Part shown: one piece after another, positions 11,207-30,656 of the stretch
How the letters are laid out: each line of letters begins with the position of its first letter
Position numbering within the stretch: the stretch's first letter is position 1
Origin: Faecalibacterium longum CLA-AA-H243
GTDB taxonomy: Bacteria; Bacillota; Clostridia; Oscillospirales; Ruminococcaceae
NCBI RefSeq assembly: GCF_020687245.1
Contig: NZ_JAJEQG010000014.1
Span: 1 to 59,366, forward strand
Reading direction: 5' to 3'
DNA length: 59,366 nucleotides
Position numbers and translations under genes: made by a program
The notes under the pieces: model-generated
Seen by the model: the letters and a program-made list of their open reading frames with translations, nothing else
Told to the model about the DNA's origin: nothing
Databases searched by the model: none

Positions 11207-11235
11207 AGGGGCGAAAGGAAAGGTTGGTGTTTGAT

Positions 11236-11514
11236 ATGAGGATTCTGTTCAAGATGGTGCTTGCCCCGATCTCTCTGTTTGTAGCTTTTCTGGCTCTGAT
11301 GGCAAAGTGGCTGCTTACCTTGTCCAGCTATATTGTTGCGCCATTGATGCTGTATATTTTCGGCTGCGGCATCTACACCGTCTACCGCCAGACTTGGGAT
11401 CAGTTTTTGATTCTGCTGGTTGCTGAATTTTTGTGCTTTGTCCTTTTTGTCGGCGCAACTGCAATGGTGGAGGGCGTTGAACGATTCAGCGGTTGGTTCC
11501 GGGACGTGATTTGA
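11236..11514 (+). CDS. CD1845-family small membrane protein
   Basis: 92 residues with two or three membrane helices (about 4-30, 32-48 and 58-76). Proteins of this size and hydrophobic pattern (MRILFKMVLAPISL...) sit between MobC and the relaxase in many Clostridia ICEs and are annotated as the CD1845 family, function unknown. ATG 11236 is preferred to the TTG at 11224 because GAAAGGAAAGG is well spaced for it. Confidence 0.7.
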   Translation: MRILFKMVLAPISLFVAFLALMAKWLLTLSSYIVAPLMLYIFGCGIYTVYRQTWDQFLILLVAEFLCFVLFVGATAMVEGVERFSGWFRDVI

Positions 11515-11568
11515 TTTTGAATCTTTTGTCGCCTTCGGGCGGCTTTTTCATTTGGGGGGTGATCTGCT

Positions 11569-14910: not shown

Positions 14911-15222
14911 GAACACCTCCAACTTTTTAGGACAAACAAGTTTATGTAAATCAAGTATAGCACAATCCCGGATGTGCTGCATAGCACTATTTTCTGCTTC
15001 CGGGAATCCATCTGTGCAAAAAGTGCCGATACCACAGGCATCGGCACTCAGATTAAAAAGCATTTTGCAAAAATGTGCAGCCTGCATCCACCGGATGCAG
15101 AACACAAGGGGTTTGGGCACGGCCCAACAAGCATTTTGAATTTGATTTTTAGAAATCAGATTCAAAAATTGCAAGTTGGTACCAGCTTGCACTGCTTGCA
15201 GAAGCTTTGAAGAAAAAGAGTA
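14911..15222. other. Intergenic region between the NADAR-nuclease and subtilase genes
   Basis: It holds an extended -10 (TGC-TATACT, minus strand, 14954-14962) that would serve the NADAR-nuclease gene, the minus-strand terminator at 15016-15048, and a 15-bp imperfect hairpin at about 15134-15167. No coding frame here has a ribosome binding site. Confidence 0.55.
15016..15048 (-). terminator. Terminator of the kinase/FHA/subtilase operon
   Basis: On the minus strand the stem GTGCCGATG / TATCGGCAC (9 bp, one mismatch) is followed by TTTTTGCAC. It lies about 175 bases after the subtilase stop. Confidence 0.7.
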
Positions 15223-18135
15223 TCAGACGGGAGTATAGATATAAATGTTGCGTCCCATCTCTCCCGTTTCAACATCGAAGCTTCCCGATGCCACTAGTTT
15301 TCCGTTATGAGTTATCTCAACATAAATATCCCAAAGGCCAGCAGACTCCCAATATGCTTTCGGCGATTGACGAATCTCTACATTAAGGTCATCCGGAACA
15401 CCCAAATCTTTTGCAATGATTCGCAGCTGCTGATCTGTAAAGCTATCTCCTTGGGATATTTTATCTGTAGGGTCGTCCCATTCGCAGATGTAGGCACATC
15501 CGGCATCAATTATTCCATCTGCATCATTCCATGTCCCATCCTGAAAATTTTCATAGAACATTGCATAGTGCTCAATACCATCCTGATTGTTCGGCTCACC
15601 AGAATGCCAATTTGTATAAGCGGTGCTGGTTCCATTGACCCATTTCCAGTTTCCTTCAGAGCTTTTATCGCTGTAACCAAAGTAGGCATTCTCGTACCCT
15701 TTTGCTTTCATTGCACTGTAGAGAAGAAAATTTTCCGTTGACGATTCAATGACCGCCAGATGACCGCCTTTCCACTCGCAGCGTCTCTCTGCTTGCTGCC
15801 ATGTGATTGGGCCGGACTCCCACTCCGATTCGGGCAATGTATAGAACTCATAGAGGTGTCCTGTGTAACCTTCGACCTGTGTTTCCTCGGCCACATCGGA
15901 TGCTTCCCATTCGCAAATGTATCCGCTTTGCTCATAAACATTACTATTCGCAAGGTCGTTCCATTTTTCCGGCCACATGGCAACACAGCTTTCTCCCGCA
16001 ACGACATTACTGGAATTATTAGGTTCACCGTCGCCCCAGTTCTCATATTCCCATGGTTCGCCTGTCACCCAACACCATTGCCCCTCCGTGTTTTTATAGC
16101 CGCCGATCCAGAGTTTGTGGTTTCCAGCATTATAGAGATTCAACTTCTGTTGTTCTTCTTCTGAAGTAATTGTTGCAAGGTGTCCGCCTTTGGCTTCACA
16201 GGCCGCTTTTGCTTCTTCCCATGTAAGCGCATCATAGAAAATTCTGTACTGGTGCTCGCCACTTGGTTCAAATGGCAAATCATCCCCAGTTTGACCTTTG
16301 GCTTTCTCATTACTCAGTTTGATTGCCTTTTCCACCGCCAAACGCGCGTTTAACAACGGATATTGTTCCTTAACACTTCCATAACTTCCTGTTGCAGTGC
16401 TTATTATAATATCCTTCACTTCTTTGGCGGTAAAGGTAGGATCAATGCCAAAAATCATTGCAGCAACACCAGCAACGTGAGGGCACGCCATGGAAGTACC
16501 AACAAGGCCATCATAGCCATTTCCATAAGGAACTGTGCTATAGATGGACGCATCAGGTATTCCGTCAATAGTCTTCTCTCCTCCTGGCGCAAGCACATCC
16601 ACTCTGCTTCCCCGGTTGCTGTAAGCTGTTACTTCATAACCGGTATGCTTACATTTTCCCCAAGATGAATGCTTTCCTGTATTCTGTGCCGCACCAACAA
16701 CAATAATCATATCCTCGATTTCCGGATCTGTAATACCGCTAATCATATCCCACTGTGCGTTTACACTGTGAGTTTTACAATTTTCTTTAGAAATCCTTCC
16801 AGCATATCGTTTGAACTTTTCATCCCAATATTTTTTCGTTTCATCGTCCGTACTATCGAACTCACCATTCATATATTTCAAATAGTCACTATACAAAATA
16901 TATGGAAGATTGAAATCATCATCTGCATCTTTTGAAAAAAACAGATCATGGTTGTTATCATTATTTGCGCATTTGCAAATGATAAATTCCATCTTTGAAA
17001 GTTCTCGGACATATTTCAAAAATGATGCAAATTCTTCATTAAATTTATTTATAACATTAATAGCATCATCATTATTGTTGCTTGCGTTGCACCTTACTTC
17101 TACTCCAAATGCACTTTGTGATATATTGATTACCTGACATTGTTTTTCAACAACAAGATATAACATTGCAATTTTCATGCAATACAGATTACTTCCATCT
17201 CCAAAGGTTGGTTTTTTCTTATCAATGGTACGATATAATGGTGAGTCAGACCAATCCACTCCGTATAGTTTTGCATTTGGAGCCACACCGCAAATACCTT
17301 TTCCATTATCAAAATCCGCACCAATAATTCCGGAAACATGCGTTGCATGCCCTTTGCCTGACCACTTTCCTTTCCATATACTCAAGCCTTGATTCATCAT
17401 AGCGGAAGCATTTCCAAGCGGCATTTCTTGAAAGACATCTTTTAGATCCTCATGGTATGGGTAAAAAATGCCGTCTATCACGCCAACATTGACCGGCTGC
17501 ATTTGATTACGGTATACCCATGCACCCGGCGCATCAATGGCCTTCATGTTCCAGTTGTTTCCAGAATTTCCGCTCCAATCGTCCCATTTTTTATCATTTG
17601 GATAATACGCCGAAGAACCCGAAATTGCGTCATTTTCCAGCTCAAATGCATAATTCAGAGAAGAACGTCTCACATAGGGGAGTGCTTTGAGCTGTTCAAT
17701 CATCTGCTCCAGTTCTCCCTGCGTATGCGCAGCAGGGAGAAGAATCTGGTAATCCGCAGTGACAGGGATTTCACCAACGACCTCACCGCCAATCGTCCGC
17801 AGATAGTCTTTCAGTGCAGAAAGACTGTCGGAGCTGTCCAATGTGACCAGAAGCTCGTTGTTAACATATCCAAAACCGCCCTGCATTACAACATTTTCTG
17901 CTGCCGGTTCGTGATAAATCAGATCACCCATGTCCGTTTCAGGGATGTCTTTTTCTACATTCACCGCAGAGACTTCTTGAACAGTTTCAGTGGGCTTAGA
18001 CGACAAATTGCTGAAAATCAAAAAAGCCAAAATCGTTCCCAGAAACAGTACAAGAATGCCAAGCAGAGCAAAGAGCCATGTCAGGTTGTTCTTACGGCGC
18101 TTTCTGTGCATATGATTCGCAGTAGATTTCTTCAT
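15223..18135 (-). CDS. Membrane-anchored S8 subtilase with two C-type lectin domains
   Basis: 970 residues. A basic N-terminus and one membrane helix (about 18-42, LTWLFALLGILVLFLGTILAFLIF) would place the rest outside the cell. A propeptide-like region precedes the catalytic domain. Catalytic Asp is in VGVIDGIF (about 218), His in GKGHATHVSG (about 263) and Ser in GTSMACPHVAG (about 548). Two C-type lectin-like domains follow (about 632-745 and 752-885), with WIGGYKNTEGQWCWV, NWGDGEPNN and WKWVNGTSTAYTNWHSGEPNN. All three catalytic residues are present, so it should be active. AAAGGA precedes ATG 18135. It is the last gene of the cluster. Processing of the neighbouring GG-leader peptide is a reasonable guess, not shown. 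Confidence 0.85.
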   Translation of the reverse strand: MKKSTANHMHRKRRKNNLTWLFALLGILVLFLGTILAFLIFSNLSSKPTETVQEVSAVNVEKDIPETDMGDLIYHEPAAENVVMQGGFGYVNNELLVTLDSSDSLSALKDYLRTIGGEVVGEIPVTADYQILLPAAHTQGELEQMIEQLKALPYVRRSSLNYAFELENDAISGSSAYYPNDKKWDDWSGNSGNNWNMKAIDAPGAWVYRNQMQPVNVGVIDGIFYPYHEDLKDVFQEMPLGNASAMMNQGLSIWKGKWSGKGHATHVSGIIGADFDNGKGICGVAPNAKLYGVDWSDSPLYRTIDKKKPTFGDGSNLYCMKIAMLYLVVEKQCQVINISQSAFGVEVRCNASNNNDDAINVINKFNEEFASFLKYVRELSKMEFIICKCANNDNNHDLFFSKDADDDFNLPYILYSDYLKYMNGEFDSTDDETKKYWDEKFKRYAGRISKENCKTHSVNAQWDMISGITDPEIEDMIIVVGAAQNTGKHSSWGKCKHTGYEVTAYSNRGSRVDVLAPGGEKTIDGIPDASIYSTVPYGNGYDGLVGTSMACPHVAGVAAMIFGIDPTFTAKEVKDIIISTATGSYGSVKEQYPLLNARLAVEKAIKLSNEKAKGQTGDDLPFEPSGEHQYRIFYDALTWEEAKAACEAKGGHLATITSEEEQQKLNLYNAGNHKLWIGGYKNTEGQWCWVTGEPWEYENWGDGEPNNSSNVVAGESCVAMWPEKWNDLANSNVYEQSGYICEWEASDVAEETQVEGYTGHLYEFYTLPESEWESGPITWQQAERRCEWKGGHLAVIESSTENFLLYSAMKAKGYENAYFGYSDKSSEGNWKWVNGTSTAYTNWHSGEPNNQDGIEHYAMFYENFQDGTWNDADGIIDAGCAYICEWDDPTDKISQGDSFTDQQLRIIAKDLGVPDDLNVEIRQSPKAYWESAGLWDIYVEITHNGKLVASGSFDVETGEMGRNIYIYTPV

Positions 18136-18172
18136 AATGATATTCCTTTGCTTGAGTTATCGAAATTTGTGA

Positions 18173-18194
18173 TGCAATAAAAAAACTGGAAGAA
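18173..18194. repeat. Left arm of a 22-bp perfect inverted repeat around the GG-leader gene
   Basis: Plus strand reads TGCAATAAAAAAACTGGAAG then AA. The exact reverse complement is at 18590-18611. Only the peptide gene (18239-18562) lies between the arms. Confidence 0.8.
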
Positions 18195-18238
18195 TGCCAT
18201 AAGTTAAAGCTCTGCGATGCTTCGCAGAAGCTCAGAAT

Positions 18239-18562
18239 TTACAGATAGAATGCAGCGAACAGATCGCCGATTCCATAGAAGAAGTCACCGAGACTGGTAA
18301 AGCCCCAGTTGCTGCCACCAGACATTGTGTGGGTATAACCATCGGAGTAAGTATATACACCGTTTTTCTTGGAAACGACAGCACCATGGGACTGCTCAAG
18401 CGTTTTGGATTCGCTTTCCCATTTATCGTAGTAGGTGCTACGGAACATACGTCCGAAAGCATAGCAGACCTGAGAAATGATACCGCCGCCCTCAACACAA
18501 GACATTTCACTTTCGTTCAGTGCCATATAATTAGCGGGCATCTGAAGTTTGCTGTTTGCCAT
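18239..18562 (-). CDS. Double-glycine-leader (bacteriocin-like) precursor peptide
   Basis: 107 residues starting MANSKLQMPANYMALNESEM. The N-terminal 27 residues form a leader with the motif ALNESEMSCVEGGG, the ELxxxxGG pattern of class II bacteriocin and ComC-type precursors. Cleavage would leave a core of about 80 residues, rich in Gly, Tyr, Ser and Phe, ending FFYGIGDLFAAFYL. AAAGGAG lies before ATG 18562. No C39 peptidase-ABC transporter is nearby. The adjacent surface subtilase is the only visible protease. A hairpin (18209-18233) lies between this gene and the subtilase and could weaken read-through. Confidence 0.65.
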   Translation of the reverse strand: MANSKLQMPANYMALNESEMSCVEGGGIISQVCYAFGRMFRSTYYDKWESESKTLEQSHGAVVSKKNGVYTYSDGYTHTMSGGSNWGFTSLGDFFYGIGDLFAAFYL

Positions 18563-18589
18563 AAAGCAACACTCCTTTTATTTTGTGCC

Positions 18590-18611
18590 TTCTTCCAGTT
18601 TTTTTATTGCA
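18590..18611. repeat. Right arm of the 22-bp inverted repeat around the GG-leader gene
   Basis: Exact reverse complement of 18173-18194, 27 bases upstream of the peptide start. The two arms enclose 395 bases. Confidence 0.8.
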
Positions 18612-18638
18612 CCCCTTTCTTTCTATAATTTTCCGATC

Positions 18639-19520
18639 TCAGCCTTTATATCTTGCCAATAGAACCGACGTATTATCGTGCCCTCCGGGAACAGCAAGTG
18701 CCGTTTTGACCATCTGTTCCGCCGCCTGTTTCAGATTTCCCGTCACGGCCAAAATTCTGCACATAGTGCTGTCCGGCAGATAGCGGTACAGCCCGTCCGT
18801 GCATTGAATGAGCACATCTCCCTTCCGAAGCTGGAACGGCATCCGGTTTCCGCTGATCAATGTCAGCTCCGAAATCCCAAGATAGCTTGTCAGAGCAGCA
18901 CGCTGCGGATGATGCAGTGCCTCATCCTGTGTTATGCTGCCCTCCAGTGCCATTTGGTCAAGCTGGGCACCAAAATTGTGATCGATGTTCAACTGCTCTA
19001 GCGTACCATCTCTATACAGGTAAATATGGCTGTCTCCTATACTGCACCAGAACAGCTTCCCGTTACGGAGAAACACTGTCGTCAGAGTCGTCCCCGCTTC
19101 GATTTTCTGGTTGGCCGGGTCCCGGAGATTCTTGACTTCCTCGTTCAGTCGTAGTGCTGCGCGTCCCATCTCCGTAGGAATATCTTCCGCCTGAGCGTGT
19201 TCCAGCAGGTATCTCGTTACCCCATGCGCCGCCAAAGCGCTGGCACGTTCGCCCCCGGTAAGCCCGCCCATACCGTCACACACAGCGCAGACTGTGCAGA
19301 AATCCCCAAAATCAAAGCATATCGAATCCTGCTGGCTTTTCCGGGTTCCAATCGACGTATAGCTGGCGATCTCCGCCTGACTCGTCTCATAGGCATCGGC
19401 ACACATCGTTTTTTCTCCTTCGTCTTTTACGGGTATCAGAAGAGTCTGTGTGATATCATCCATCGCTTCGGGAATGGTATTGGCTTCCTCGCCTGCCTTT
19501 TTTCGCTTGAACAGGGACAT
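18639..19520 (-). CDS. PP2C-family Ser/Thr protein phosphatase
   Basis: 293 residues with all metal-binding PP2C motifs: GTRKSQQDS, AVCDGMGG, SIGDSHIYLY, CTDGLYRYL and GGHDNTS. An N-terminal stretch of about 55 residues precedes the domain. ATG 19520 overlaps the kinase stop (TGATG), with GGTGGTG upstream, so translation is probably coupled; a GTG at 19523 is the alternative. It would reverse phosphorylation by the kinases of this cluster. Confidence 0.9.
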   Translation of the reverse strand: MSLFKRKKAGEEANTIPEAMDDITQTLLIPVKDEGEKTMCADAYETSQAEIASYTSIGTRKSQQDSICFDFGDFCTVCAVCDGMGGLTGGERASALAAHGVTRYLLEHAQAEDIPTEMGRAALRLNEEVKNLRDPANQKIEAGTTLTTVFLRNGKLFWCSIGDSHIYLYRDGTLEQLNIDHNFGAQLDQMALEGSITQDEALHHPQRAALTSYLGISELTLISGNRMPFQLRKGDVLIQCTDGLYRYLPDSTMCRILAVTGNLKQAAEQMVKTALAVPGGHDNTSVLLARYKG

Positions 19521-21001
19521 CACGTTTCAATCACCACCTTGAATGTGTACTCGGGCGACACGACACAAAAAATATCGCCATCTTTCAGTGTATACGATTT
19601 TTCTTTTTCCATTGGCTTTCCGTCCGCCAGATAGGTGCCATATTTGGACAGGTCCCTGACGATAAATTCCCGCTTGGGCTCGTTGTAAAACACCTCGCAG
19701 TGATTCCGGCTGATCTGGTTATCCGCTGGCATCATCACGTCGCTCGTCGCCAAACGCCCGACCTTCACCGTGCGATTCGGCTCGATTATCCACCGCCGTC
19801 TGGAAATGTGACCACCCGATTTCCGCATCGTCAGCTCCAGATATGCCAGCCTGCGTTTTTTCGGATGGAAGAATGCGGCCAGGCGCTTCGGCTCTGGCAT
19901 ATTCTGCTCCTCAACCTGACACATCTTCTCCGAGTCGTCGGAAGTCTCGACATGAATTTCCGCCTGCTTCGATGCCTTTGATTTCGGCATCAGTGCCCCC
20001 AAATCGATGTCGTAGTCCTCCGGCCGGACGACCTGTTCCAGTGCATCCAGAAAATCAAGCATCCTGCGATAACGGTCGTGGTAGTCGAACGCCAACGCCT
20101 TGTCAATCACGTCCGACAGCTGTCGGGAGACAGCGGGACACAGCTCGTGCAACGGGGGATAGGAGGCTCCTTTCGCACGGCTCAGTGCGTCCAGCATCTT
20201 GCGCCCTGACACGATAAAGTAGAAAGTTGCGGCCAGTGCGTAAATGTCCGTCCACGGTCCCTGACACGGTTTCTGCGTATACTGCTCGTAAGGGGCGTAG
20301 TTCGGCTTCAGGTAAATTTTTCTTTCTTTATTATCGCTCCCCTGACGGAACGAGCGTGCCGCGCCGAAATCGATGAGCTTTATTTCACCGTCCTGTGTGA
20401 TAAGGATATTTTCCGGGCTGATATCCCCGTGGATCATGCCGAAACGATGGACTTCTGCCAGTGAACTTCCGAGCAGGAACAGCATCTGGAGTGCCATCTT
20501 GAGCGTCTGCTTCGGATTATGATTTTTTCGGAACACCCGCAGATTGCAACCCTCAATCAGCTCCATTGCAAAATATGCCGTCCCGTTTTCTTCAAAAAAA
20601 TCCAGAATGTCAACGACAGAGATATTTTCTCGAAGCTCCTGAAGGGCGCATGCTTCTTCAATGAACTGCTGCTTTCCCTCTTCATACTCAGGCCGGTTTT
20701 CTTCATCTGCCAGGATGAGGGCACCATCTGGTGTCCTCCCCTGAAGCAGACCGGACGGGAAGTACTCTTTGATGCAGCAGCGTAGGCCGCTCTGCATATT
20801 CTCAGCAAGATACGTAATTCCGAAACCGCCCTGTCCCAAACTCTTGCCCAACAGGTATTTTTCTTTCAGAATGGTGAACGGTGCCAGATAGTCTTTCACT
20901 GCAGAAGATTCTTCTGCATGATACCCGCAGTTCCGACACTCCCCATGCTCCATCGCTTCCTGAAAGCAAACGGGACAAAGTTTTTCTTCCAGACCCGCCA
21001 T
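19520..21001 (-). CDS. Ser/Thr protein kinase with N-terminal zinc ribbon and C-terminal FHA domain
   Basis: 493 residues. C9-x2-C12 and C22-x2-C25 form a zinc ribbon. The kinase has the glycine loop SLGQGGFGITYLAEN, Lys in CCIKEYFP, HGDISPENIL (HGD, a non-RD kinase) and IDFGAARS. The C-terminus (about 390-493) is an FHA domain: KVGRLATSDVMM, then NQISRNHCEVF and LSKYGTYLADGK. No membrane segment is seen, so it is probably cytosolic. FHA domains bind phosphothreonine, so it can dock to phosphorylated partners or itself. It sits between a PP2C gene and an FHA membrane protein. Confidence 0.9.
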   Translation of the reverse strand: MAGLEEKLCPVCFQEAMEHGECRNCGYHAEESSAVKDYLAPFTILKEKYLLGKSLGQGGFGITYLAENMQSGLRCCIKEYFPSGLLQGRTPDGALILADEENRPEYEEGKQQFIEEACALQELRENISVVDILDFFEENGTAYFAMELIEGCNLRVFRKNHNPKQTLKMALQMLFLLGSSLAEVHRFGMIHGDISPENILITQDGEIKLIDFGAARSFRQGSDNKERKIYLKPNYAPYEQYTQKPCQGPWTDIYALAATFYFIVSGRKMLDALSRAKGASYPPLHELCPAVSRQLSDVIDKALAFDYHDRYRRMLDFLDALEQVVRPEDYDIDLGALMPKSKASKQAEIHVETSDDSEKMCQVEEQNMPEPKRLAAFFHPKKRRLAYLELTMRKSGGHISRRRWIIEPNRTVKVGRLATSDVMMPADNQISRNHCEVFYNEPKREFIVRDLSKYGTYLADGKPMEKEKSYTLKDGDIFCVVSPEYTFKVVIET

Positions 21002-21035
21002 CTTTTATCTCACCCCGTCCTAATACTTTCCCGGC

Positions 21036-22109
21036 TCAGTTTTTGAACTGGAAGATTTCGTTTCCGAGCGTGATATACATACCATTCGCCAGCGTCACTG
21101 TATTGCTGCCCAGAATTTTCTCGTCGCCCACGAACGTGCCATTTTTGGAGCCAAGGTCCTGAATGGTGCAGACACCATTGCGGCAGCTAATCTTCGCATG
21201 GGCACGGCTGATGATCGGGTTGGAGACGATGATGTTTGCCTGAGAACCCTTGCCGATCACAACCTCTGTGTTATTGTAGATTGCAAAACTCCGGTTCGTG
21301 TTCATCTGGATCAAAGAGGCCACGACTGTCATCGAGTTGTCCGTTGCCGGCACGGTTGTGGCATTGCCGTCATCGACCAGATTCGTCTCGGCATCCCGAC
21401 TCGGATCGTTGCTGTTCCAGTCGTCCACGAACGCTTCCTCGTCTTCATGCACCGCATAGCTAACGATCACGGAAGCCACGGACATGATTGCGGCCAGTAC
21501 GAGGAGCACAATCAGAATCATAGTCAGTGCAGGGGCAACACGGCTGGTTATCGAAGTGTCCGTCGGATCGATGGAAAATTTACCCGCAAACACAAAGAAG
21601 TACACTGCCAGCAACTCGATGATGCCAATCAGGTTCGCCACCAGTGCGCACCAGCTTATCGTGAACACACTAGCAATAGCCGCTGCGACGACCAGCACGA
21701 AGAACAGTACCAACAGTGCCACGCAAATTTTAGAGATATCATCCGAGGCATCACTCATGGTTTCAAGATTTACCAGCCTTGCCTTCTGCAAATCGGGACT
21801 GACAAGATAGGAAAATACACTCGTACTGCCTTTTTCAACGAATTCATCGATCTTATCGGAGGTAGTGCCCGCACCGAACTGAAAATTCAGCTTTGCTGCT
21901 TCTTTCATCTGTTTAAGCTCAGAAGTCATGGTTGCAGGGATATCCTTAAAGGTCCCCTTTTCCGTTTTCATCTGGTATCTCAGCTGATACCCCGGCACAA
22001 AAAGTGCCACAAGCAAAATCACCGTTGCAATCCACGAAAGAACCGCTCCAATTTTTTTACCCTTGGGGGCATCCGCAAAGAATGTTGCAAATTTTCTGTT
22101 GTCCTCCAT
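21036..22109 (-). CDS. Four-helix membrane protein with C-terminal FHA domain
   Basis: 357 residues. Membrane helices lie at about 21-42, 125-150, 153-175 and 190-215, with a loop of about 80 residues between the first two that would face outside. The cytosolic C-terminus (about 270-357) is an FHA domain with VIGKGSQANIIVS, PIISRAHAKISC and LGSKNGTFVGDEK. AAAGGAG precedes ATG 22109. The membrane part matches no family I can name. It could be a phosphothreonine-reading platform for the adjacent kinases. Confidence 0.8.
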   Translation of the reverse strand: MEDNRKFATFFADAPKGKKIGAVLSWIATVILLVALFVPGYQLRYQMKTEKGTFKDIPATMTSELKQMKEAAKLNFQFGAGTTSDKIDEFVEKGSTSVFSYLVSPDLQKARLVNLETMSDASDDISKICVALLVLFFVLVVAAAIASVFTISWCALVANLIGIIELLAVYFFVFAGKFSIDPTDTSITSRVAPALTMILIVLLVLAAIMSVASVIVSYAVHEDEEAFVDDWNSNDPSRDAETNLVDDGNATTVPATDNSMTVVASLIQMNTNRSFAIYNNTEVVIGKGSQANIIVSNPIISRAHAKISCRNGVCTIQDLGSKNGTFVGDEKILGSNTVTLANGMYITLGNEIFQFKN

Positions 22110-22127
22110 AATAATGTCTCCTTTGTT

Positions 22128-23003
22128 TTACAATATTTTATCCGCCGGAGTAGAGTGTTCCAGCAAGATATCCTTTATTACCTTTTTCCCCGCAGTCTGC
22201 GTAGCCTTTTTCCATAATGGGAAAAGACCTTTTTTCTCTCCGACCGCGCTGATAAGGATGCCTGTGATATTGTCCGTCTCTTTTCGTTTCATGCAGAGCT
22301 GTGCTGTTTCTTCCAGAGCCTCATGTAACTTTTTTTCCTTGGAAGAATACCTGCAGCTCTTTTTTATTTCAGCCTCTGTCACCTTGCGGCGAAACCCGTC
22401 GCAGCAGATCAGAAACGTCCGGTGCGGCAGAACCTCACCGGAAAGATAATCCGGTTTCACATCTTTGCCCGCTCCCACGCACTGAAGCAGGAGGCTTTGT
22501 CTCGAATCTTTCCGGGCTTGTTCCGGTGTCAGTTTTCCTTCGGTAAGTTCACGCTGGACGATGGTATGATCTGTCGTAAGTTGCGTGAGGGTATCCGAAA
22601 TGATATATGTCCGGCAATCTCCGACATGGCAGATGTAATACCGACCTTTCATAAAAAGAACAGCTTCCACTGTCGTTCCGCTGCGGAATCCGGCCTTTTC
22701 GGAGTTGTCTTTCAACCGGATATGAAGCGATTGGATAAGATTGTCCCAGTCATCGAACAGCTCCGTCTCCGGTTCTTCCTGTTCATATAGTTCCTCGACA
22801 CGCTCATCGAACCAGTCCCGGAAGGCTGTCACGACCGCTGCGCTGCTCCGCTCGCCCATTTTCAGTCCACCTACGCCGTCGCAGATCACTGCGAGGACAG
22901 CTTCATCGTCCTGAGTCTGACCTCGTTGCACCAGAAGGAGAGAATCCTGATTCGTTTCCTTCTGTATTCCGATATCGGAATAATATGCGGCACAATATTT
23001 CAT
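22128..23003 (-). CDS. PP2C-family protein phosphatase
   Basis: 291 residues. Motifs are KETNQDS, AVICDGVGGLKMGE, CHVGDCRTYIIS, LICCDGFRR and ETDNITG. The metal-binding aspartates are present. A C-terminal extension of about 35 basic residues follows. It is the second phosphatase of the cluster and shares only the family motifs with the one at 18639. It lies 18 bases after a 45-residue membrane ORF. Confidence 0.88.
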   Translation of the reverse strand: MKYCAAYYSDIGIQKETNQDSLLLVQRGQTQDDEAVLAVICDGVGGLKMGERSSAAVVTAFRDWFDERVEELYEQEEPETELFDDWDNLIQSLHIRLKDNSEKAGFRSGTTVEAVLFMKGRYYICHVGDCRTYIISDTLTQLTTDHTIVQRELTEGKLTPEQARKDSRQSLLLQCVGAGKDVKPDYLSGEVLPHRTFLICCDGFRRKVTEAEIKKSCRYSSKEKKLHEALEETAQLCMKRKETDNITGILISAVGEKKGLFPLWKKATQTAGKKVIKDILLEHSTPADKIL

Positions 23004-23021
23004 GTTCCTTTTCCTGCTTTC

Positions 23022-23159
23022 TCAGCGGTATTCGTGTTCGATTTCAAGAAGAACCATTTTCTTCTTTTTGTGCAGCAGAACGCTCCCGACCACGGCCAAT
23101 AAAACAGCAACCAGCACCAGACAGATACCACACACCACCATGATTTGTCCAACCGTCAT
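23022..23159 (-). CDS. 45-residue single-pass membrane peptide
   Basis: ATG 23159 has GAGGTGGAG upstream. The frame starts MTVGQIMVVCGICLVLVAVL, continues through a hydrophobic helix and ends in a lysine run and an acidic tail (HKKKKMVLLEIEHEYR). It fills the gap between the kinase and PP2C genes with tight spacing, which supports it as a real small gene. Function is unknown. Confidence 0.55.
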   Translation of the reverse strand: MTVGQIMVVCGICLVLVAVLLAVVGSVLLHKKKKMVLLEIEHEYR

Positions 23160-23173
23160 TTTCTCCACCTCTT

Positions 23174-25333
23174 TTACTGCCAGTTGTTCCGTGCCATGCG
23201 GTCCAGCTCATCCATCTGCGGGTCATACACGCCAGATGCCTGCTCTGCACGATAGAGTTCAGCAGCCGTTTCGTAATATCCCAGCGTTTTCGTGTAGGAT
23301 GCTCCGTTCTGCAAATCAAGTTCGCCCTGAACAAAGGCGAGCCATTTATACACCCGGTAGTCCTTGGGGTAATCTTTTTTCAGTGCCTGAAGCATCTCCA
23401 TCGCTTTGGAGAAATCATGTAGCTGATATTGCAACATTGCGATATTCAGCCGGACTTCCAGCGTGGTGTTTCCGTTTTTCTCCAGCTGCTGATAGGTTCG
23501 CAAGGCATCTTTTTGATAGCCGGGATTCCCGGTCGCTTCCGCCTGACGAATATATGCGGACGCCAGCTGTCCGGCCAGCGCGTTGTAATATCCATCGGGG
23601 AGCTGTTCAATGCCCTGATTCAGGAGATTGATTTCCTCCGAAAGCATGGAGTCTCCGATATCCTCACAGATCGATGCTGCCAGACGGTACGCGCGTGCAA
23701 GCTGGTCGTTGCCGTCCGCCGAGCCGATTGCCTTACGGGCGGCATCCAGCGCATCCGGCAGGTCTCCCTGTTTTCTCAGAAGCTCGCTTTGAACGACCTG
23801 ATAGGCACCGCTTTGTTCGGCGTCAGGGACAGCTTTCGCCATCTCTGCAAGGACCTCATCCGCGCCAGAATAATCGCCCAGCTGAATCAGGGCGGTCGCC
23901 TCACCCTGATAATAGCTCAGGATATCAGGAGAGTATCCTATCGCTTTCTGGTACATCGTCGCAGCCGATTCATAGCTTTCCAGCTCGTAGTAAGCCTCCG
24001 CTGCCACGTTGTACAGGTTTGCCACGCTCTGTCTGCTGTAATATTTCAGCTCACGCGACTGCGTCGTTTCCACTGCATCGATGCACTCCTGATACTTTCC
24101 CTGCCGATAGAGAAGGACTGCCTGTTCCACATATGCTTCCAACTGGTCATCGTAAATCGCGATAGCCTGCTGCAGGTCCTGCTCCGCCTCATCAAAGCGC
24201 ATTTCATCGGCGGCCGTCCGGCCTTTCCGCACGAGGGCATCATAAGCGGCGTACCGTTCCACGCCGATTCGCTGTACGCCAAACAGGATAGCCAAAGTTC
24301 CTGATACCGCAAGGACAAGAGAGACCGCCGCCACAACTCGCTGAGAATGAACCACCTTTTTATAGCGTCCGTCGATTGCGTGGATATCCTGCAGTGCCCG
24401 GAGCATTTCCTGTGCGTCGCAGAAGCGTTCTTCCTGCCTTTTCATCATCGCTCTGGCGATGATGAGCAAAAAGCTACGGCTGAATTTGAGTTTATAGCTC
24501 GTGATGGGCCGAACATCCTTCAGCGAATGGCCGGGCTGCTGCCCGGTGATTGCATAGTATAGAGTCGCACCGATGCCATAAACGTCCGTTCTCTTGCTGA
24601 TAGTGCCATAACCACCCGCATTGGTTGCTTGCGCCGCTGTGACAGAATTGCTCACACCTCTGCCGGACGGATCCTTGTTGGATCTGACATTCTGATAGGC
24701 GAACGCATCTTTGTATCCTCGCAGCGGCATGGTTTCTTCAAGCGGAACCGTCTCGATCGTATCGGGCGATGCTCCCGGACGGGTATACTGTTCCGGTGCC
24801 GCATAGCCCGGCGTTGCGCCAATTGCCAGTACGCCTTTTGAAAAAACAAGCGATGTGTTAAAATCGATGACGCAGATATCGCCGGCGGGTGTTATCATGA
24901 TATTGCTGGGCTTGATATCACAGTGCAGGATCGGAGGTACCTGCGAGTGAAGATAGGCAATCACCTCACAGAGCTGACAGGCCCACCGGTACGCAAGCTT
25001 CTGGCTGACCGGACCGTGTGTTTTGACGTAGTTTTGCATGTTCTCGCCCGGTATCATGTCCATGATGGTATAGACATAGCCGCTCGGGCTTTCGATCACG
25101 TCATAGATGCGCGGAAGATACTTGTGCTTCAGCGTCTTGAGGATGTTGGCCTCCGCGCGCTCATCCATCCGTCCCTTGAACTTCTGTTTCACACGCTTGA
25201 TAACGACGTCAACATCCAAACTGTCTTTGTGCGCACGGTAAAGCGTACCCATTCCGCCCTCGCCAAGAGGCCGGATCGCACTGTAGCCGCTCCCAAGATC
25301 CGCCGCCCATTGGCTGGTTTCGTTATAATTCAT
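23174..25333 (-). CDS. Membrane-anchored Ser/Thr kinase with TPR repeats
   Basis: 719 residues from ATG 25333, six to seven bases after GGGAGG; ATG 25339 is too close to the ribosome site. The kinase domain is at about 15-310: PLGEGGMGTLYRAH, VVIKRV, LHCDIKPSNIMI (HCD, non-RD), then CVIDFNTS (DFN instead of DFG) and PGYAAPEQY. One membrane helix lies near 338-360 (VVAAVSLVLAVSGTLAILFG). The rest (370-719) is TPR-like helical repeats that would lie outside the cell. The DFN change keeps the metal-binding Asp, so activity is plausible. Confidence 0.88.
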   Translation of the reverse strand: MNYNETSQWAADLGSGYSAIRPLGEGGMGTLYRAHKDSLDVDVVIKRVKQKFKGRMDERAEANILKTLKHKYLPRIYDVIESPSGYVYTIMDMIPGENMQNYVKTHGPVSQKLAYRWACQLCEVIAYLHSQVPPILHCDIKPSNIMITPAGDICVIDFNTSLVFSKGVLAIGATPGYAAPEQYTRPGASPDTIETVPLEETMPLRGYKDAFAYQNVRSNKDPSGRGVSNSVTAAQATNAGGYGTISKRTDVYGIGATLYYAITGQQPGHSLKDVRPITSYKLKFSRSFLLIIARAMMKRQEERFCDAQEMLRALQDIHAIDGRYKKVVHSQRVVAAVSLVLAVSGTLAILFGVQRIGVERYAAYDALVRKGRTAADEMRFDEAEQDLQQAIAIYDDQLEAYVEQAVLLYRQGKYQECIDAVETTQSRELKYYSRQSVANLYNVAAEAYYELESYESAATMYQKAIGYSPDILSYYQGEATALIQLGDYSGADEVLAEMAKAVPDAEQSGAYQVVQSELLRKQGDLPDALDAARKAIGSADGNDQLARAYRLAASICEDIGDSMLSEEINLLNQGIEQLPDGYYNALAGQLASAYIRQAEATGNPGYQKDALRTYQQLEKNGNTTLEVRLNIAMLQYQLHDFSKAMEMLQALKKDYPKDYRVYKWLAFVQGELDLQNGASYTKTLGYYETAAELYRAEQASGVYDPQMDELDRMARNNWQ

Positions 25334-25354
25334 GCACATCCTCCCACACGACTT

Positions 25355-26377
25355 TTAAGACGGAAATTCGTCTTTCAGACTATCAAACTCCGATTGAATC
25401 TGCGACCAGTCAAAATCATCGCTTTCGCCGCTGTCCTGCGACGGGTCATAGGTAGGCGCCGTCACTGTCCCGGACGATTCGGTTCCCTGTCCGCTTCCCG
25501 CGCTGCCGAGGCCTTTTCGGAGAGCCTCCTGAGCCATCGAATTTGCGATGCCGGCCGCTTCGCCGGTGAGTCCGCTTTTTTCCACGACCTTGCTTGCTGC
25601 GCTGTCCGCTGCTTTCTCGGCCACCTTTTGGGTGACCGTCTTAGCGTTGTCTTTCGCATCAACCTTGACACTTACAGATGCCGATTGCCCCGATTCATCC
25701 TTCAGGAAATCATTAATCTGTACCGTCAGCGTGCAAGTTCCATCCGAGTTCGTTTTGATCTTGGCATCGATGGTGTTGAAATCGACGCCATTTGTTTCCG
25801 CATTCTGGAGCAGTTTCTCAATGCCGCTTTCATCGTCTAGTGCCGCATAGTGTGCTCCCAGCAGGGCATAGGGGTCGGCATTCTGCGGGTCTGCCGCAAT
25901 CCACGCCTCGCCCACGTCTTTTGCAAAGACCGAATTCAAGTCATCCCAAAAGTGTTCCGAAAGCATTTGGAAGGGAACGTTTCCGCCACCGCTTTCAAAG
26001 ACCAGCTTTGCATCATCCAGAAATCCTGGAAGAAAGTCCGCCTCGTCATCAAACACTTCCTGCGCCTGTTCAAAGACCTTGTTTGCCTCATCGGCTTTTC
26101 CCTGTGCTGCATAAGCGGCATACAGGCCCGCATAGGCTTCCTTGTTCGTCGGGTCGTGCTGGATGATATCGATATACTGCAAGATTGCGTTATCGTAATC
26201 CAGCGAGGTCAAGTAGTTCGTTCCAAGATTCAAGACCTTGGCTAGCGAAAAGACCTCTGCCGTCTCCGAATCTGAATCGGTGGATAATGTTGCCATCGAG
26301 CTTCTCGGACTGCATCCTGCCAGTGCTATTGCAGCCACTGCCACCAGTGCTGCAACGATGATTTTTTTACTCTTCAT
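25355..26377 (-). CDS. TPR-like lipoprotein
   Basis: 340 residues. The signal peptide has a lipobox, LAGC at about 19-22, so it is lipid-anchored on the outer face of the membrane. Residues 45-115 are TPR-like (YLTSLDYDNAILQYIDII, NKEAYAGLYAAYAAQGK). The C-terminal 60 residues are low-complexity and acidic (TESSGTVTAPTYDPSQDSGE). The start overlaps the preceding gene by 11 bases. It is a possible extracellular partner of the TPR kinase encoded next. Confidence 0.8.
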   Translation of the reverse strand: MKSKKIIVAALVAVAAIALAGCSPRSSMATLSTDSDSETAEVFSLAKVLNLGTNYLTSLDYDNAILQYIDIIQHDPTNKEAYAGLYAAYAAQGKADEANKVFEQAQEVFDDEADFLPGFLDDAKLVFESGGGNVPFQMLSEHFWDDLNSVFAKDVGEAWIAADPQNADPYALLGAHYAALDDESGIEKLLQNAETNGVDFNTIDAKIKTNSDGTCTLTVQINDFLKDESGQSASVSVKVDAKDNAKTVTQKVAEKAADSAASKVVEKSGLTGEAAGIANSMAQEALRKGLGSAGSGQGTESSGTVTAPTYDPSQDSGESDDFDWSQIQSEFDSLKDEFPS

Positions 26378-27209
26378 TGTCTGCTCCTAAAGCCGGACTC
26401 CTATCATCTTCGTCCGCCGCTTCTATCAGCTGAAACTTATTTGCACCATCTGCCAGTGCGACAATACTTTTCCCGGACACATAAGTCGGCACATTATAAG
26501 GAATACGCACCCCATTGACGAATACCCCGTTCCGGGAATGGTCGGTAACATTAAACCCAAGATCCTTTCCATTATATTGAACCGTACAGTGAATCCGGCT
26601 GATTTTTTCGCCTCTTACGATAAGCGACACCTCCGCTGGGTTCCGACCCAGTTCCACCGATCGTCCGGGTATCAGCTCAAAGCTTCTGCCCGCCAAACTT
26701 CCGGTCAACCCAGACAGTCTCCCCCGCATACAGGGCGGGGGAGGTTTCGTGTTGGGGTTGTCGTGCACTTCCGTGCGCTTTTGCCTGCTCCGCTCATATG
26801 CCTCAGCCAGTCGGTTCGTGTCCCGGATTGCTCGATACATTGCGACGAGATATCCAAGAACCGGAACCAGGATCATCCATACAAAGAAGGTTTCGCTGTC
26901 CTGCCGGACCTCCACATCGTATTCCGCCGCATTGTCACAAATGCGGTCCACGATCTCCGCAAGCCACACATATTTGTACACGCCGAATGTCAGGACACTG
27001 AACAGCATCATTTTTTCGACGCCCACCGTATGTTTTCCATCCTTTTCGCACAGAATGTTGACATCCTTCGCCCACAAGTCCATGAAATAAAAATGGTAGA
27101 CCGAAAACGTCACGAAAGACAGCAGCACATACAACAGTAAGCTCCGATCCTGCTTCACCTCATCTGTTCCGCGATCCTGATTCGTTCTTTTTCTGCGTCT
27201 CTCAGGCAT
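26367..27209 (-). CDS. DUF4234-like membrane protein with C-terminal FHA domain
   Basis: 280 residues. Three membrane helices lie at about 24-42, 66-84 and 108-125, in the DUF4234 pattern (LLLYVLLSFVTFSVYHFYFM ... DVNILC). The FHA domain (about 168-262) has VELGRNPAEVSLIV, KISRIHCTVQY and HSRNGVFVNG. It overlaps the lipoprotein gene by 11 bases and follows the DUF975-like gene by 10. The FHA end should be cytosolic. Confidence 0.8.
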   Translation of the reverse strand: MPERRRKRTNQDRGTDEVKQDRSLLLYVLLSFVTFSVYHFYFMDLWAKDVNILCEKDGKHTVGVEKMMLFSVLTFGVYKYVWLAEIVDRICDNAAEYDVEVRQDSETFFVWMILVPVLGYLVAMYRAIRDTNRLAEAYERSRQKRTEVHDNPNTKPPPPCMRGRLSGLTGSLAGRSFELIPGRSVELGRNPAEVSLIVRGEKISRIHCTVQYNGKDLGFNVTDHSRNGVFVNGVRIPYNVPTYVSGKSIVALADGANKFQLIEAADEDDRSPALGADNEE

Positions 27210-27219
27210 ACTGCATCAC

Positions 27220-28470
27220 TCAGCTCAGCCGGATGATATTGTTGTTATCGCCCAATGCAAGCTCCGTTCCCCGGGTCAGCAGCACCGGAGAATTCGCAGG
27301 GAGGCGGCTTCCGTTTACGTAGGTGCCGTTGCTGGAAAAATCGGTAACACGATATTTCTGAACCTGACTGTTGAACATGACCTCACAGTGGCGGCGGCTG
27401 ATCTTCTGCGCACCCTGAGAAAAAACGATCTTCGCATAGGCAGGGTCTCTGCCCAGAATGACCGGCTGGTTCGGCTCCAGCGGATAGCTCGAGCCCGCAT
27501 ACATACCGGCGACCCCCTCCAGAGCTGCTCCCGCAGCTCTGGAAGCAGCCGGGATATGAGAAGTCGGCTTCTTTCCACCGGTGCTGCCAATCCCCATCAA
27601 TTTTTTCGGATCTACAGCAATCGTCATTCCGTTGCCGTCAGTGGACGGTTTGATGTCATCCACCATGACCGGGCGGCCCTTCATTTCTTCATAAACAAAA
27701 GCAGTTGCCATCATCTTGTACGGTGCAACATACAGGACAGAAAGAATCCCGCCGGTAAGCAGGCTCAGAATATTCCAGCCGAGATAGCTGAGATCAAAGA
27801 CAAACAGGTCAAATTTACGGCCTTCCGTCATCGCCTTGCAGCGCTCCATGACCTGTTCTGCATTCAGCTGCGGATGGTCCGCTTGCACCAGAGCCATAGG
27901 CCAGAACTGATATGAACGATAGGCCGCAACAACGAGAGCTGCAATCATGCCGATCATCACCAGCAGCATTGCCGCCAGATAACTCCGAGAAGCCGCTGCA
28001 ACAACAGCCGCCAGCAACAGCGTAGCAAACTGGATCAGAACCGGGATCCACATGATCGTCAGCATCCGCACTCCTGTAACAATGGCAAATTGCATAAAGA
28101 AATCAAATGCATCAAAGATGCAGGTGACTTTTGGTCGGATTCCATTCTTCCGCAGAGAAAGATAGTACCGGTATCGTGCCACTTCAAACGGCCCGGCAAC
28201 TGCTCCACCGGCGATAGCACCGACGAGCGTTGCAATCGGAGTAATCAGCACATAGGCAATGATGATTCCCGCCAGACCAAACAGCTTGAACGGTGCCGAC
28301 ACAACCGCCGACACGACCCCAATGCCGCCTGCGATCATCGCACCCAGCAGGACACTTGTGATTGCCGCAATCACCCGATACAGAATCTCCATGCCGACCA
28401 CTCCGGACAGATTTCCGTTTTCATTCAGAACACGTTTTGCCTTTTCTTTATTTCCAGCCCGATTTATCAC
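27220..28470 (-). CDS. DUF975-like membrane protein with C-terminal FHA domain
   Basis: 416 residues with about six membrane helices in residues 28-260. The DUF975 features are YRSYQFWPMALVQADHP, CKAMTEGRKFDLFVFDLSYL and LYVAPYKMMATAFVYEEMKG. The FHA domain is at about 325-416: VILGRDPAYAKIVFS, KISRRHCEVMF and FSSNGTYVNGSRL. It lies 22 bases after the zinc-ribbon FHA gene. A DUF975-FHA fusion is uncommon to my knowledge. Confidence 0.8.
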   Translation of the reverse strand: MINRAGNKEKAKRVLNENGNLSGVVGMEILYRVIAAITSVLLGAMIAGGIGVVSAVVSAPFKLFGLAGIIIAYVLITPIATLVGAIAGGAVAGPFEVARYRYYLSLRKNGIRPKVTCIFDAFDFFMQFAIVTGVRMLTIMWIPVLIQFATLLLAAVVAAASRSYLAAMLLVMIGMIAALVVAAYRSYQFWPMALVQADHPQLNAEQVMERCKAMTEGRKFDLFVFDLSYLGWNILSLLTGGILSVLYVAPYKMMATAFVYEEMKGRPVMVDDIKPSTDGNGMTIAVDPKKLMGIGSTGGKKPTSHIPAASRAAGAALEGVAGMYAGSSYPLEPNQPVILGRDPAYAKIVFSQGAQKISRRHCEVMFNSQVQKYRVTDFSSNGTYVNGSRLPANSPVLLTRGTELALGDNNNIIRLS

Positions 28471-28492
28471 AACGATTCCCCCTTATTTCGTT

Positions 28493-29068
28493 TTACCAGT
28501 GGAATTTTTCGCTGCACAAGGGAACAAACATCAGTTTCGTGTCGCCGATGCTGAGCTGGTCCATGGCCTTCAGCTCAATTGGGTTGAGCACAAGCTTATC
28601 GTTCACATAGAACAGCTCTTTAGAGCTGCCCGGCTGCGCAAGATACACATTACTACGCGGATCATACACAACAATCGCATGAGAGCTGCGGGAAACCGTG
28701 TTGTCGCCAAGGATGCAGACATCCATCTCCGAAGAACGACCCACAAAATTGCGGCCCTGATGCAGACGATAGTCGGTTCCCTTATTCACACCTTCCGTGC
28801 AGACGAGCCAACCAACAACTGGTGCCGACTTTTCTGTAGCACCGTCCAACATATCTGCAGTTACAGGGAGCGTGCGGTCATCGTCATCGGGAATTGCAGT
28901 GCTCAGAGGTTCAGTCGCTACGCTGGGACCCGGCTGAGACACCGGGACGTCCAAAGGAACCGTCGTCTGATCCGGCCCAACGTTCACACCTTCCATGCCG
29001 CAGAAGGGGCAGCTGCTGAACCGGGAAGCATCGTAGTGGTGGCCGTTGGGGCATTTCATCAAATTCAT
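28493..29068 (-). CDS. Zinc-ribbon protein with FHA domain
   Basis: 191 residues. The N-terminus MKCPNGHHYDASRFSSCPFC is a short zinc ribbon. A Pro/Thr/Val-rich linker follows (about 28-75), then an FHA domain (about 85-191) with GRNFVGRSSEMDVCI, VSRSSHAIVVYD and GSSKELFYVNDK. No membrane helix is seen. AGGAGG lies about ten bases before ATG 29068. It is the first gene of the cluster. The linker has several TTVPL/TLPVT threonines that could be kinase targets, in the manner of small FHA substrates such as GarA; that is inference. Confidence 0.82.
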   Translation of the reverse strand: MNLMKCPNGHHYDASRFSSCPFCGMEGVNVGPDQTTVPLDVPVSQPGPSVATEPLSTAIPDDDDRTLPVTADMLDGATEKSAPVVGWLVCTEGVNKGTDYRLHQGRNFVGRSSEMDVCILGDNTVSRSSHAIVVYDPRSNVYLAQPGSSKELFYVNDKLVLNPIELKAMDQLSIGDTKLMFVPLCSEKFHW

Positions 29069-29202: not shown

Positions 29203-29228
29203 CTGTCGCAGAGTAGCCCACTCTGCGA
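29203..29228. repeat. Left palindromic recombination-like site beside the integrase
   Basis: A 9-bp palindrome TCGCAGAGT/ACTCTGCGA around the asymmetric core AGCCC. The 26-bp sequence is the exact reverse complement of 30586-30611, so the two sites have opposite orientation. Inverted arms around a short asymmetric core are typical of tyrosine recombinase sites. Confidence 0.7.
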
Positions 29229-29269: not shown

Positions 29270-29289
29270 TTGACGGCTTATTTGACGGA
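29270..29289. repeat. 20-bp direct repeat, copy 1 (TTGAC arms)
   Basis: TTGACGGCTTATTTGACGGA, identical to 30431-30450. It overlaps the integrase stop codon. A further TTGAC starts at 29257, so three TTGAC units are spaced 12-13 bp. It may be an arm-type binding site. Confidence 0.7.
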
Positions 29290-30490: not shown

Positions 30491-30585
30491 GTAAGTACGA
30501 CATTATTTTCTTTTTTTCAGAATTTCAGATTGCTTTCTCTTGACCATCCGTGTAATCGGCGGTAAAATTCAATTGAATCATCCTG

Positions 30586-30611
30586 TCGCAGAGTGGGCTA
30601 CTCTGCGACAG
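30586..30611. repeat. Right palindromic recombination-like site
   Basis: Core GGGCT flanked by a perfect 13-bp stem (CCTGTCGCAGAGT / ACTCTGCGACAGG when flanks are included). It is the reverse complement of the left site. Confidence 0.7.
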
Positions 30612-30618: not shown

Positions 30619-30656
30619 AAACCATGAATGTAAAAATTCATGGTTTTTATTTTTTC
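30619..30656 (+). terminator. Plus-strand terminator outside the right site
   Basis: The stem ACCATGAAT / ATTCATGGT is followed by TTTTATTTTTT. No plus-strand gene precedes it now. It would terminate the integrase transcript if the 29203-30611 segment were inverted. Confidence 0.75.

Follow-up and report, generated by a model that had tools for sequence, protein, structure and literature searches.

The window, by which we mean the whole 59,366-nucleotide stretch of Faecalibacterium longum CLA-AA-H243 analyzed here, carries twelve tightly packed minus-strand genes at positions 15223 to 29068 (Table 1). Intergenic distances range from 5 to 103 nt, and two gene pairs overlap, by 11 and 4 nt. The ORF coordinates matched at every point those of an earlier, sequence-only reading, which had described eleven genes plus a 45-residue membrane ORF with short gaps or overlaps. 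Pfam searches backed the domain content claimed there. Of the two kinases, one has an FHA domain and the other TPRs; alongside them are two PP2C phosphatases, an additional four FHA proteins, a lipoprotein with TPRs, and a subtilase bearing a pair of C-type lectin domains. The five FHA matches found in the whole genome all fall inside this cluster, and membrane or signal segments are predicted for many of its proteins. The same reading had seen no EssC/WXG, vWA, or C39 transporter gene at the locus. No cluster protein matched vWA in Pfam or gave an FtsK/EssC match, and the genome's one C39 transporter and one vWA protein outside the cluster lie elsewhere. A 22-nt repeat, D1 (17800/20885), falls within two coding regions that share a similar short peptide there, and we attribute it to chance.

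Table 1. Features of the window discussed in the text, in order of position
Feature	Coordinates	Strand	Description
mob genes	10795..12951	+	MobC/NikA-like protein and MobA relaxase, mobilizable element
67-bp stretch	15072..15138		Kept in MT835594.1 at far cargo end; left edge of exchanged slot
g1	15223..18135	-	Signal-anchored subtilase, Fervidolysin-type propeptide, two C-type lectin domains (EPN, WND)
Inverted repeats around g2	18173..18611		37 nt, 31/37 pair; best of 60 simulations, 24
g2	18239..18562	-	GG-leader peptide, 107 aa; leader related to small genus peptides; probable later insertion
g3	18639..19523	-	PP2C; T-L-L-I motif in N-tail
g4	19520..21001	-	CxxC..CxxC zinc ribbon, Ser/Thr kinase, FHA
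g5	21036..22109	-	Four-TM protein, FHA at C terminus
g6	22128..23003	-	PP2C phosphatase
g7	23022..23168	-	Single-TM ORF, 48 codons from GTG or 45 from ATG
g8	23174..25339	-	Ser/Thr kinase, one TM helix, TPRs; 37% identity to sister-element kinase
g9	25355..26377	-	Lipoprotein, N half TPR-like
g10	26367..27209	-	DUF4234 membrane domain, FHA
g11	27220..28470	-	DUF975 membrane domain, FHA
g12	28493..29068	-	Zinc knuckle (CxxGHxYD...CPxC) and FHA, GarA/OdhI-like; linker Thr66 conserved; operon's first gene
Left recombination site	29206..29228	+	9-bp arms, spacer AGCCC
Tyrosine recombinase	29278..30414	-	Within candidate invertible segment
Promoter-like site	30540..30568	+	TTGACC-17-TAAAAT, outward, inside candidate invertible segment
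Right recombination site	30586..30608	-	Inverted, spacer identical to left
Terminator-like hairpin	30619..30646	+	Immediately outside right site
Large serine recombinase	36457..38055	+	Adjoins tRNA-Ala (38235-38310); element end near 38.5 kb

Upstream of g12 lies a cassette with a recombinase, inverted sites, and a promoter-like site, which the earlier reading had overlooked. Its layout suggests that the operon probably sits behind a flippable DNA segment that would serve as an on/off switch. Homologous recombinases were compared at 22 loci, of which 21 were testable (the flank of L235 was too short); 18 had flanking inverted sites above their own simulations, with L230, L233, and L236 not exceeding theirs and L234 above by one letter. 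With the strand of each locus set from the alignment, an outward promoter-like site (at least 9/12) occurred on the 5' side of the recombinase in 17 of 18 loci versus 3.65 expected (the miss is L225). The 3' side gave 0/18, a control that says little because only 0.51 was expected. A promoter scan of the window's own cassette returned 7 sites against 3.0 expected, so conservation in a sister element (MT835594.1), which keeps both promoter hexamers, their spacing, and the terminator, is the better promoter evidence. We saw a single orientation, both assembled copies (window and MT835594.1) being in the same state. The operon may possibly have a promoter outside the switch, in 29069-29199, and the recombinase could be cotranscribed with the operon. 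The 26-nt site pattern was absent from viral contigs. We found no account of invertible promoters in this genus in the open-licence literature, a search that is weak as evidence of absence.

The cassette and operon are carried by a mobilizable element. G+C content is 42 to 55% over 1 to 34 kb versus 58 to 63% over 40 to 58 kb, and the ends of the element recur with different cargo in G009 and MT835594.1. MT835594.1 has the relaxase end and recombinase of the window and holds, in the same slot, a Tad pilus locus together with related PP2C, kinase-TPR, and lipoprotein genes, an exchange of cargo in this slot that is seen in the sequence itself. The Tad locus includes T2SSE, T2SSF, prepilin peptidase, and an FHA protein. 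Neither this sister element nor the vWA proteins of related loci (see below) had been noticed earlier.

Next, we consider recurrence of the gene set. Using a g12 alignment, we retrieved 386 g12-type loci and kept the best 80, many of which end at contig ends. In 57 of these 80 loci, a kinase and a PP2C occurred with two or more FHA proteins, one FHA protein per locus being present by construction because the loci were selected by the zinc-knuckle FHA protein. A vWA domain was present in 56/80 (the vWA, S8, M4, and FHA profiles used for the counts were built from a handful of the loci or from the window itself), and gene orders are alike in several clostridia. The sequence-only reading had named co-occurrence in other genomes as its check and genes that fail to co-occur as its refutation; since the set recurs elsewhere, that objection falls away. 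Its linking of a phospho-signaling set to surface proteins on a mobile element likewise agrees with the gene content, this recurrence, and the element ends with other cargo. We found no description of the gene set in the open-licence literature, again weak as absence. In a search of 31 genomes of the genus, the zinc-knuckle FHA protein turned up in no genome other than that of the window. No relatives of g12 were found in viral contigs, and 19 plasmid records have a distant FHA match, none covering 80% of g12.

Several details of the signaling proteins suggest a phosphothreonine circuit. The best PDB matches of the g12 FHA domain, by sequence profile and by fold of the model, are GarA/OdhI. 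Thr66, N-terminal to this domain, reaches 90% conservation or more across 53 sequences. A motif, T-[VIL]-x-[hydrophobic], is present in 51 of 60 g12-type linkers (shuffled mean, 10.6; maximum, 20) and in 28 of 49 PP2C tails (10.7; maximum, 19), where part of the motifs fall in hydrophobic stretches; here, as in the site and promoter tests, the shuffles overstate independence because the tested sequences are mutually related. The linker set includes the window and was drawn from 97 listed g12-like proteins, the rest lying outside the zinc-knuckle plus PVxGW pattern. Phosphorylation and self-docking of Thr66 would be expected of a GarA/OdhI-type switch, for which g12 is a candidate. The fold model is good for the FHA domain and has low confidence in the linker, and docking of Thr66 is therefore only proposed. 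The PP2C motifs DGMGG/DGVGG can be read directly in the sequence, and kinase g8 has DFN in place of the usual DFG, a departure that counts against the reading preferred below. As a single query against genome contigs, g8 found no relative. Lipoprotein g9 matched 7 of 150 relatives besides its own genome, the listed matches outside that genome being short stretches of the TPR part, and its single-sequence fold prediction was poor.

The candidate output of the operon is the surface protease g1. Direct reading places the subtilase D/H/S motifs at 217-222, 263-267, and 546-550, and both lectin domains have EPN (at 704 and 847) and WND (at 725 and 869). The C-terminal domain of g1 also occurs in a TPR lipoprotein of the sister element. 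A surface protease adjoins the core in 8/80 loci (seven subtilases and one thermolysin). Subtilases beside the core numbered 7 in 49 genomes versus 1.035 expected; this count took in 49 of the 80 loci (the 31 left out include the proteobacterial ones), used rounded sizes, could score one gene as two matches (which lifts the expected number), and followed our having already noticed subtilases in relatives. Four of the eight protease loci (subtilases L098, L100, and L101 and thermolysin L104; L077 is the same locus as L100) encode protease, vWA, TM, and FHA in one chain, with protease and phospho-reader on opposite sides of one membrane helix. The window subtilase is without an FHA tail. The tie to the protease may be loose, because 72/80 core loci are without one and, of ten genomes with just one subtilase match, six carry it away from this locus.

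Our preferred reading, which we put forward tentatively, is that the operon forms a surface module under phosphothreonine control, one that is phase-variable and rides as exchangeable cargo on a mobilizable element. The recombinase would flip the 1.4-kb segment in which it lies. After inversion, the outward promoter would drive g12 and then the rest of the operon; in the assembled state, it would face the terminator, leaving the operon OFF. Membrane kinase g8, with its TPRs outside and g9 perhaps as partner, and zinc-ribbon kinase g4 would phosphorylate T-[VIL]-x-[hydrophobic] threonines in linkers, among them those of g12 and g3. The FHA domains of g12, g4, g5, g10, and g11 would dock these phosphothreonines, so that a membrane scaffold is built or released, and PP2Cs g3 and g6 would reset it. 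The scaffold may govern the display or activity of a surface output, here a subtilase whose Ca2+-lectin-type domains would bind glycans while the protease part cuts nearby proteins. In the sister element, a Tad pilus would take the place of the subtilase output.

The PP2C/kinase-TPR/lipoprotein module that accompanies the Tad genes in MT835594.1 could also mean that the operon is just the regulatory part of a machine for pilus formation or secretion, evolved from Tad pilus or T7SS-type loci, with the machine itself encoded elsewhere in the host. The subtilase indeed has a weak match to T7SS mycosin (TIGR03921), but at 63.9 bits it falls below the cut-off of 278.75. T2SSE, T2SSF, prepilin peptidase, FtsK/EssC, and WXG100 have no match among the twelve proteins, and the genome's one WXG100-like match, on another contig, is below the curated cut-off. 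We therefore consider this origin unlikely.

The sequence-only reading itself had favored a sensing system by which a secreted peptide is released or cleaved. On this view, g2 would be the peptide, the subtilase would process it, and a C39 transporter would act in trans. The position of g2 between a PP2C and the subtilase and the C39 transporter elsewhere in the genome fit this idea. The description of g2 as a bacteriocin-like precursor stood in part: the GG leader fits by eye and resembles genus peptides (matches in 23/30 same-genus genomes at a loose limit of E 0.1, with only two below 0.001 among the matches listed outside its own genome), but the bacteriocin match in Pfam is a weak one that, at E 0.054, falls short of the cut-off. 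As the leader belongs with a genus-wide family and the gene lies between its own 37-nt inverted repeats, g2 looks like a later addition, a probable insertion into the operon. A strict scan found no GG-leader peptide beside eight core-cluster loci, although it is insensitive, since it recovered only 2/4 genus peptide loci. Lectin domains would also be unexpected on a leader peptidase. A peptide as product or substrate of the system is thus not borne out, and we regard this reading as improbable.

An island for defense or stress, akin to TerY-phosphorylation or to kinase abortive-infection systems, would suit the mobile cargo, the adjoining NADAR-DarT1 nuclease-like gene, and the PADLOC kinase models that match both kinases. 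These models match over the kinase domain, probably in a generic way, the operon has neither a vWA TerY protein nor a DNA-processing domain, and the many predicted membrane or signal segments also speak against such an island, which we think quite improbable. The T7SS, T6SS, TerY-P, and defense readings were weighed and set aside. That genes for kinases, phosphatases, FHA proteins, and proteases, all common families, piled up by chance is very improbable given the recurrence in 57/80 loci, the similar gene orders, and the gathering of the genome's five FHA domains in one place.

We know of no output for most Hanks-type kinases, PP2Cs, and FHA proteins of gut clostridia. The locus ties such proteins to surface outputs (a lectin-bearing protease here and a pilus in the sister element), names Thr66 of g12 as a candidate phospho-site, and leads us to predict a DNA switch whose state simple read mapping would reveal. 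If the phase-variable surface module is real, it would offer gut bacteria a way to gain and phase-vary an entire signaling-controlled surface program at once. The kinase/PP2C/zinc-FHA core might, more broadly, be a general phosphothreonine switchboard for clostridial surface machines. A lectin-subtilase, protease-vWA-FHA proteins, and a Tad pilus would then be outputs exchanged behind the core or its kinase-TPR/PP2C half, and within this genus the core would travel as mobilizable cargo under an invertible promoter. We hold this generalization to be possible but on balance doubtful; if true, a population could switch a whole signaling-plus-effector surface program on or off.

Among known systems, the Tad (type IVc) pilus locus of MT835594.1 shares the element slot, the PP2C/kinase-TPR/lipoprotein module, and an FHA protein with the window, which is without pilus genes. 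In the T6SS threonine phosphorylation pathway, PppA is the PP2C partner. In that PpkA/PppA/Fha pathway, as in our model, a kinase and an FHA reader control membrane assembly (PMC3953482), whereas the window's twelve genes include no T6SS structural gene and have five FHA proteins and a subtilase. The TerY-phosphorylation triad consists of TerY, a kinase, and a PP2C, at times with WXG/FtsK (PMC4978471). It resembles the cluster in the kinase-PP2C pair within an island and in the vWA of many relatives, but the window has no vWA, FHA proteins dominate, and a surface protease with lectins replaces the DNA-processing genes. The actinobacterial PknG-GarA/OdhI system likewise combines a TPR kinase with a GarA-like FHA protein having a conserved linker Thr (PMC8546545); here, in contrast, the TPRs of g8 lie past a predicted TM helix and g12 has an added zinc knuckle. 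Archaeal ArnA-ArnB joins FHA and vWA in phosphorylation-dependent complexes (PMC6509490), and many relatives of the cluster have both, whereas the window is without vWA and its output would be a surface protease. Finally, the cassette, as inferred from sequence, differs from the invertible promoters of UPEC in placing promoter and recombinase in one segment on a mobilizable element, and it shares with them tyrosine recombinases, inverted sites, and a promoter that would be redirected on inversion (PMC6083910).

Gene calls bore out the order and coordinates of the twelve minus-strand genes (g1 to g12, with g12 first in the operon) that the sequence-only reading had listed. By its Pfam matches, the cluster encodes two kinases, two PP2C phosphatases, a TPR lipoprotein, and a subtilase that carries two C-type lectin domains. 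It also has five FHA domains; all five FHA matches in a search of the whole genome fell inside this single cluster. Catalytic motifs could be read from the sequence of the subtilase (g1), and both phosphatases (g3 and g6) have DGxGG motifs. Each lectin domain of g1 carries the EPN and WND motifs that mark Ca2+-dependent mannose-type binding. In the membrane kinase g8, DFN replaces DFG, and the corresponding kinase of the sister element MT835594.1 has DFN there too.

The cluster had been proposed as a candidate undescribed system, and a search for the gene set in other genomes found its core (kinase, PP2C, and zinc-FHA genes) again. Searching 394 genomes of the order with the membrane-FHA protein g11 led us to fetch 20 stretches, 11 of which hold a relative of the zinc-knuckle FHA protein g12 (E below 1e-20). 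A search with an alignment of g12 matched 386 places in named genomes, and we kept the best 80. Among these 80 g12-selected loci, a related kinase was present in 69, PP2C in 66, and at least two FHA proteins in 72, with all three together in 57. A vWA domain occurred in 56 of the loci and was joined to FHA in a single protein in 36. By record title the 80 loci are largely clostridial, with others from Bacillus, Deltaproteobacteria, Gammaproteobacteria, Comamonadaceae, and further groups. A common gene order in core loci was PP2C, zinc-FHA, vWA-FHA, kinase-FHA, PP2C, zinc-FHA, membrane-FHA.

A protease also stands beside the core in some of the best 80 of the 386 matches (subtilase in seven loci, thermolysin in one). 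In the 49 of the 80 for which a genome-wide subtilase count gave an expectation, seven loci were observed against 1.035 expected (Poisson P of about 1e-4). Where a genome had exactly one subtilase match (n = 10), it lay at the core locus in four cases and elsewhere in six. In three loci (L098, L100, and L101) the subtilase chain runs on through a vWA domain and a membrane helix to an FHA domain, and L104 has the same arrangement behind a thermolysin; these proteins are the clearest link between a protease outside and phospho-reading inside. The set at L097 is close to that of the window, with consecutive genes for kinase-FHA, PP2C, FHA, zinc-FHA, subtilase, FHA, PP2C, and a second kinase.

Both by sequence and by predicted fold, the proteins nearest to g12 are GarA and OdhI. 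Thr66 lies in the g12 linker, a region that is uncertain in the fold model; across 53 sequences this threonine shows conservation of 90% or more, and it is part of a T-[VIL]-x-[hydrophobic] motif. This motif was found in 51 of 60 g12-type linkers (shuffled mean, 10.6; maximum, 20) and in 28 of 49 PP2C tails (shuffled mean, 10.7; maximum, 19). By analogy with GarA/OdhI, this site is probably phosphorylated by a kinase and read by FHA domains.

Among 31 genomes of the genus, g12 was found only in the window's own, and base composition shifts near 34-40 kb. In genome G009, the relaxase side is 75 to 79% identical to the window and 32950-38503 is 97% identical; the cargo in between (L210, 9961-16864) encodes an ABC transporter, a radical SAM protein, a GHKL sensor, and a LytTR regulator, perhaps a modified-peptide cluster. 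MT835594.1, a human fecal scaffold deposited as Bacteriophage sp., matches the window at 83% on the relaxase side and 87% in the recombinase cassette, and it also has a 67-bp stretch at the opposite edge of the exchanged cargo slot. Its slot holds genes for a Tad pilus and a DUF6382-FHA protein, along with PP2C, kinase-TPR, and lipoprotein genes related to g6, g8, and g9. Near its end, g1 has 71 residues in common with an MT835594.1 lipoprotein (41%; E = 4e-15). Judged by gene content, MT835594.1 is a mobilizable element whose cargo is a Tad pilus. Near the tRNA-Ala end, a 51-bp stretch matches Faecalibacterium phage FP_Taranis, which suggests Faecalibacterium as the host.

Positions of features in and around the cluster
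Feature	Coordinates	Remark
2418-aa protein with MutS-I-like, Eco57I methylase, and SNF2 helicase domains	3542-10798	
NADAR-DarT1 antitoxin-like protein with Card1/PDDEXK-like nuclease region	13018-15192	outside the exchanged slot
37-nt inverted repeats around g2	18173-18611	
Recombinase cassette	29199-30615	member of a genus-wide family with inverted flanking sites
PemK/MazF-like toxin domain, then DUF6551 protein	34509-35216	
Cas_Csd1 protein	47858-49645	high-G+C part of the window; presumably type I-C

DNA related to the 2418-aa gene adjoins the relaxase in both G009 and MT835594.1. The domain of the NADAR-DarT1-like protein does not begin until residue 96, and its real start therefore probably lies close to 14910. 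An ADP-ribosylation-related gene adjoins the window cluster, and near the protease-bearing core cluster of genome G646 there is likewise an open reading frame (L077, 2682-3569) that resembles, by eye, a poly(ADP-ribose) glycohydrolase.

Upstream of g12, a tyrosine recombinase gene is flanked by a pair of inverted 26-nt sites, in each of which a 5-bp spacer separates two 9-bp arms. The pair matches at 29 of 30 letters, far above chance (best of 30 simulations, 22). We found 22 recombinase loci in the genus, and 18 of the 21 testable ones had site pairs that exceeded their own simulations. Within most pairs the central part of the site is equal or nearly so, and it differs among many loci. Near the right site, the window segment contains a promoter-like TTGACC-17-TAAAAT that points outward and faces a terminator-like hairpin just past that site. 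MT835594.1 keeps both hexamers, their spacing, and the hairpin, while 8 of the 17 spacer letters differ. An outward promoter-like site (at least 9 of 12) occurred at the recombinase 5' side in 17 of 18 genus loci versus 3.65 expected. Inversion would place the window promoter near 29246-29274, reading into g12; by this model, the assembled orientation would be OFF. We fetched ten of the genus recombinase loci and scanned ten proteins from seven of them. In four (L241, L243, L245, and L247), surface polysaccharide genes (Bac_transf, glycosyltransferases, Wzz, and LytR_cpsA_psr) follow the recombinase on the same strand.

The leader of the GG-leader peptide g2 is similar to small peptides of the genus, mostly with weak E-values, and the genome has a C39 transporter away from the cluster. 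With its inverted repeats, whose arms were absent from the other regions of the loci compared, g2 looks like a small mobile cassette. A strict GG-leader scan found no such peptide beside eight core loci and none around the C39 gene, but its sensitivity is low: of four genus peptide loci, it recovered a peptide in just two. We take g2 to be an added gene.

No description of this gene set was found among the open-access papers listed by the searches, and membership in the TerY-P, T7SS, or Tad systems was rejected on the features tested. One paper describes kinase, PP2C, and vWA neighborhoods in actinobacteria (PMC7159879), and another gives a survey of bacterial kinases that have FHA and PP2C partners (PMC1262709). 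The kinase/PP2C/FHA controls that the cluster resembles include the type VI secretion threonine pathway (PMC3953482), PknG-OdhI (PMC8546545), ArnA-ArnB (PMC6509490), and the TerY-P triad (PMC4978471). By analogy, the cluster would work like these known controls of membrane assemblies and metabolism.
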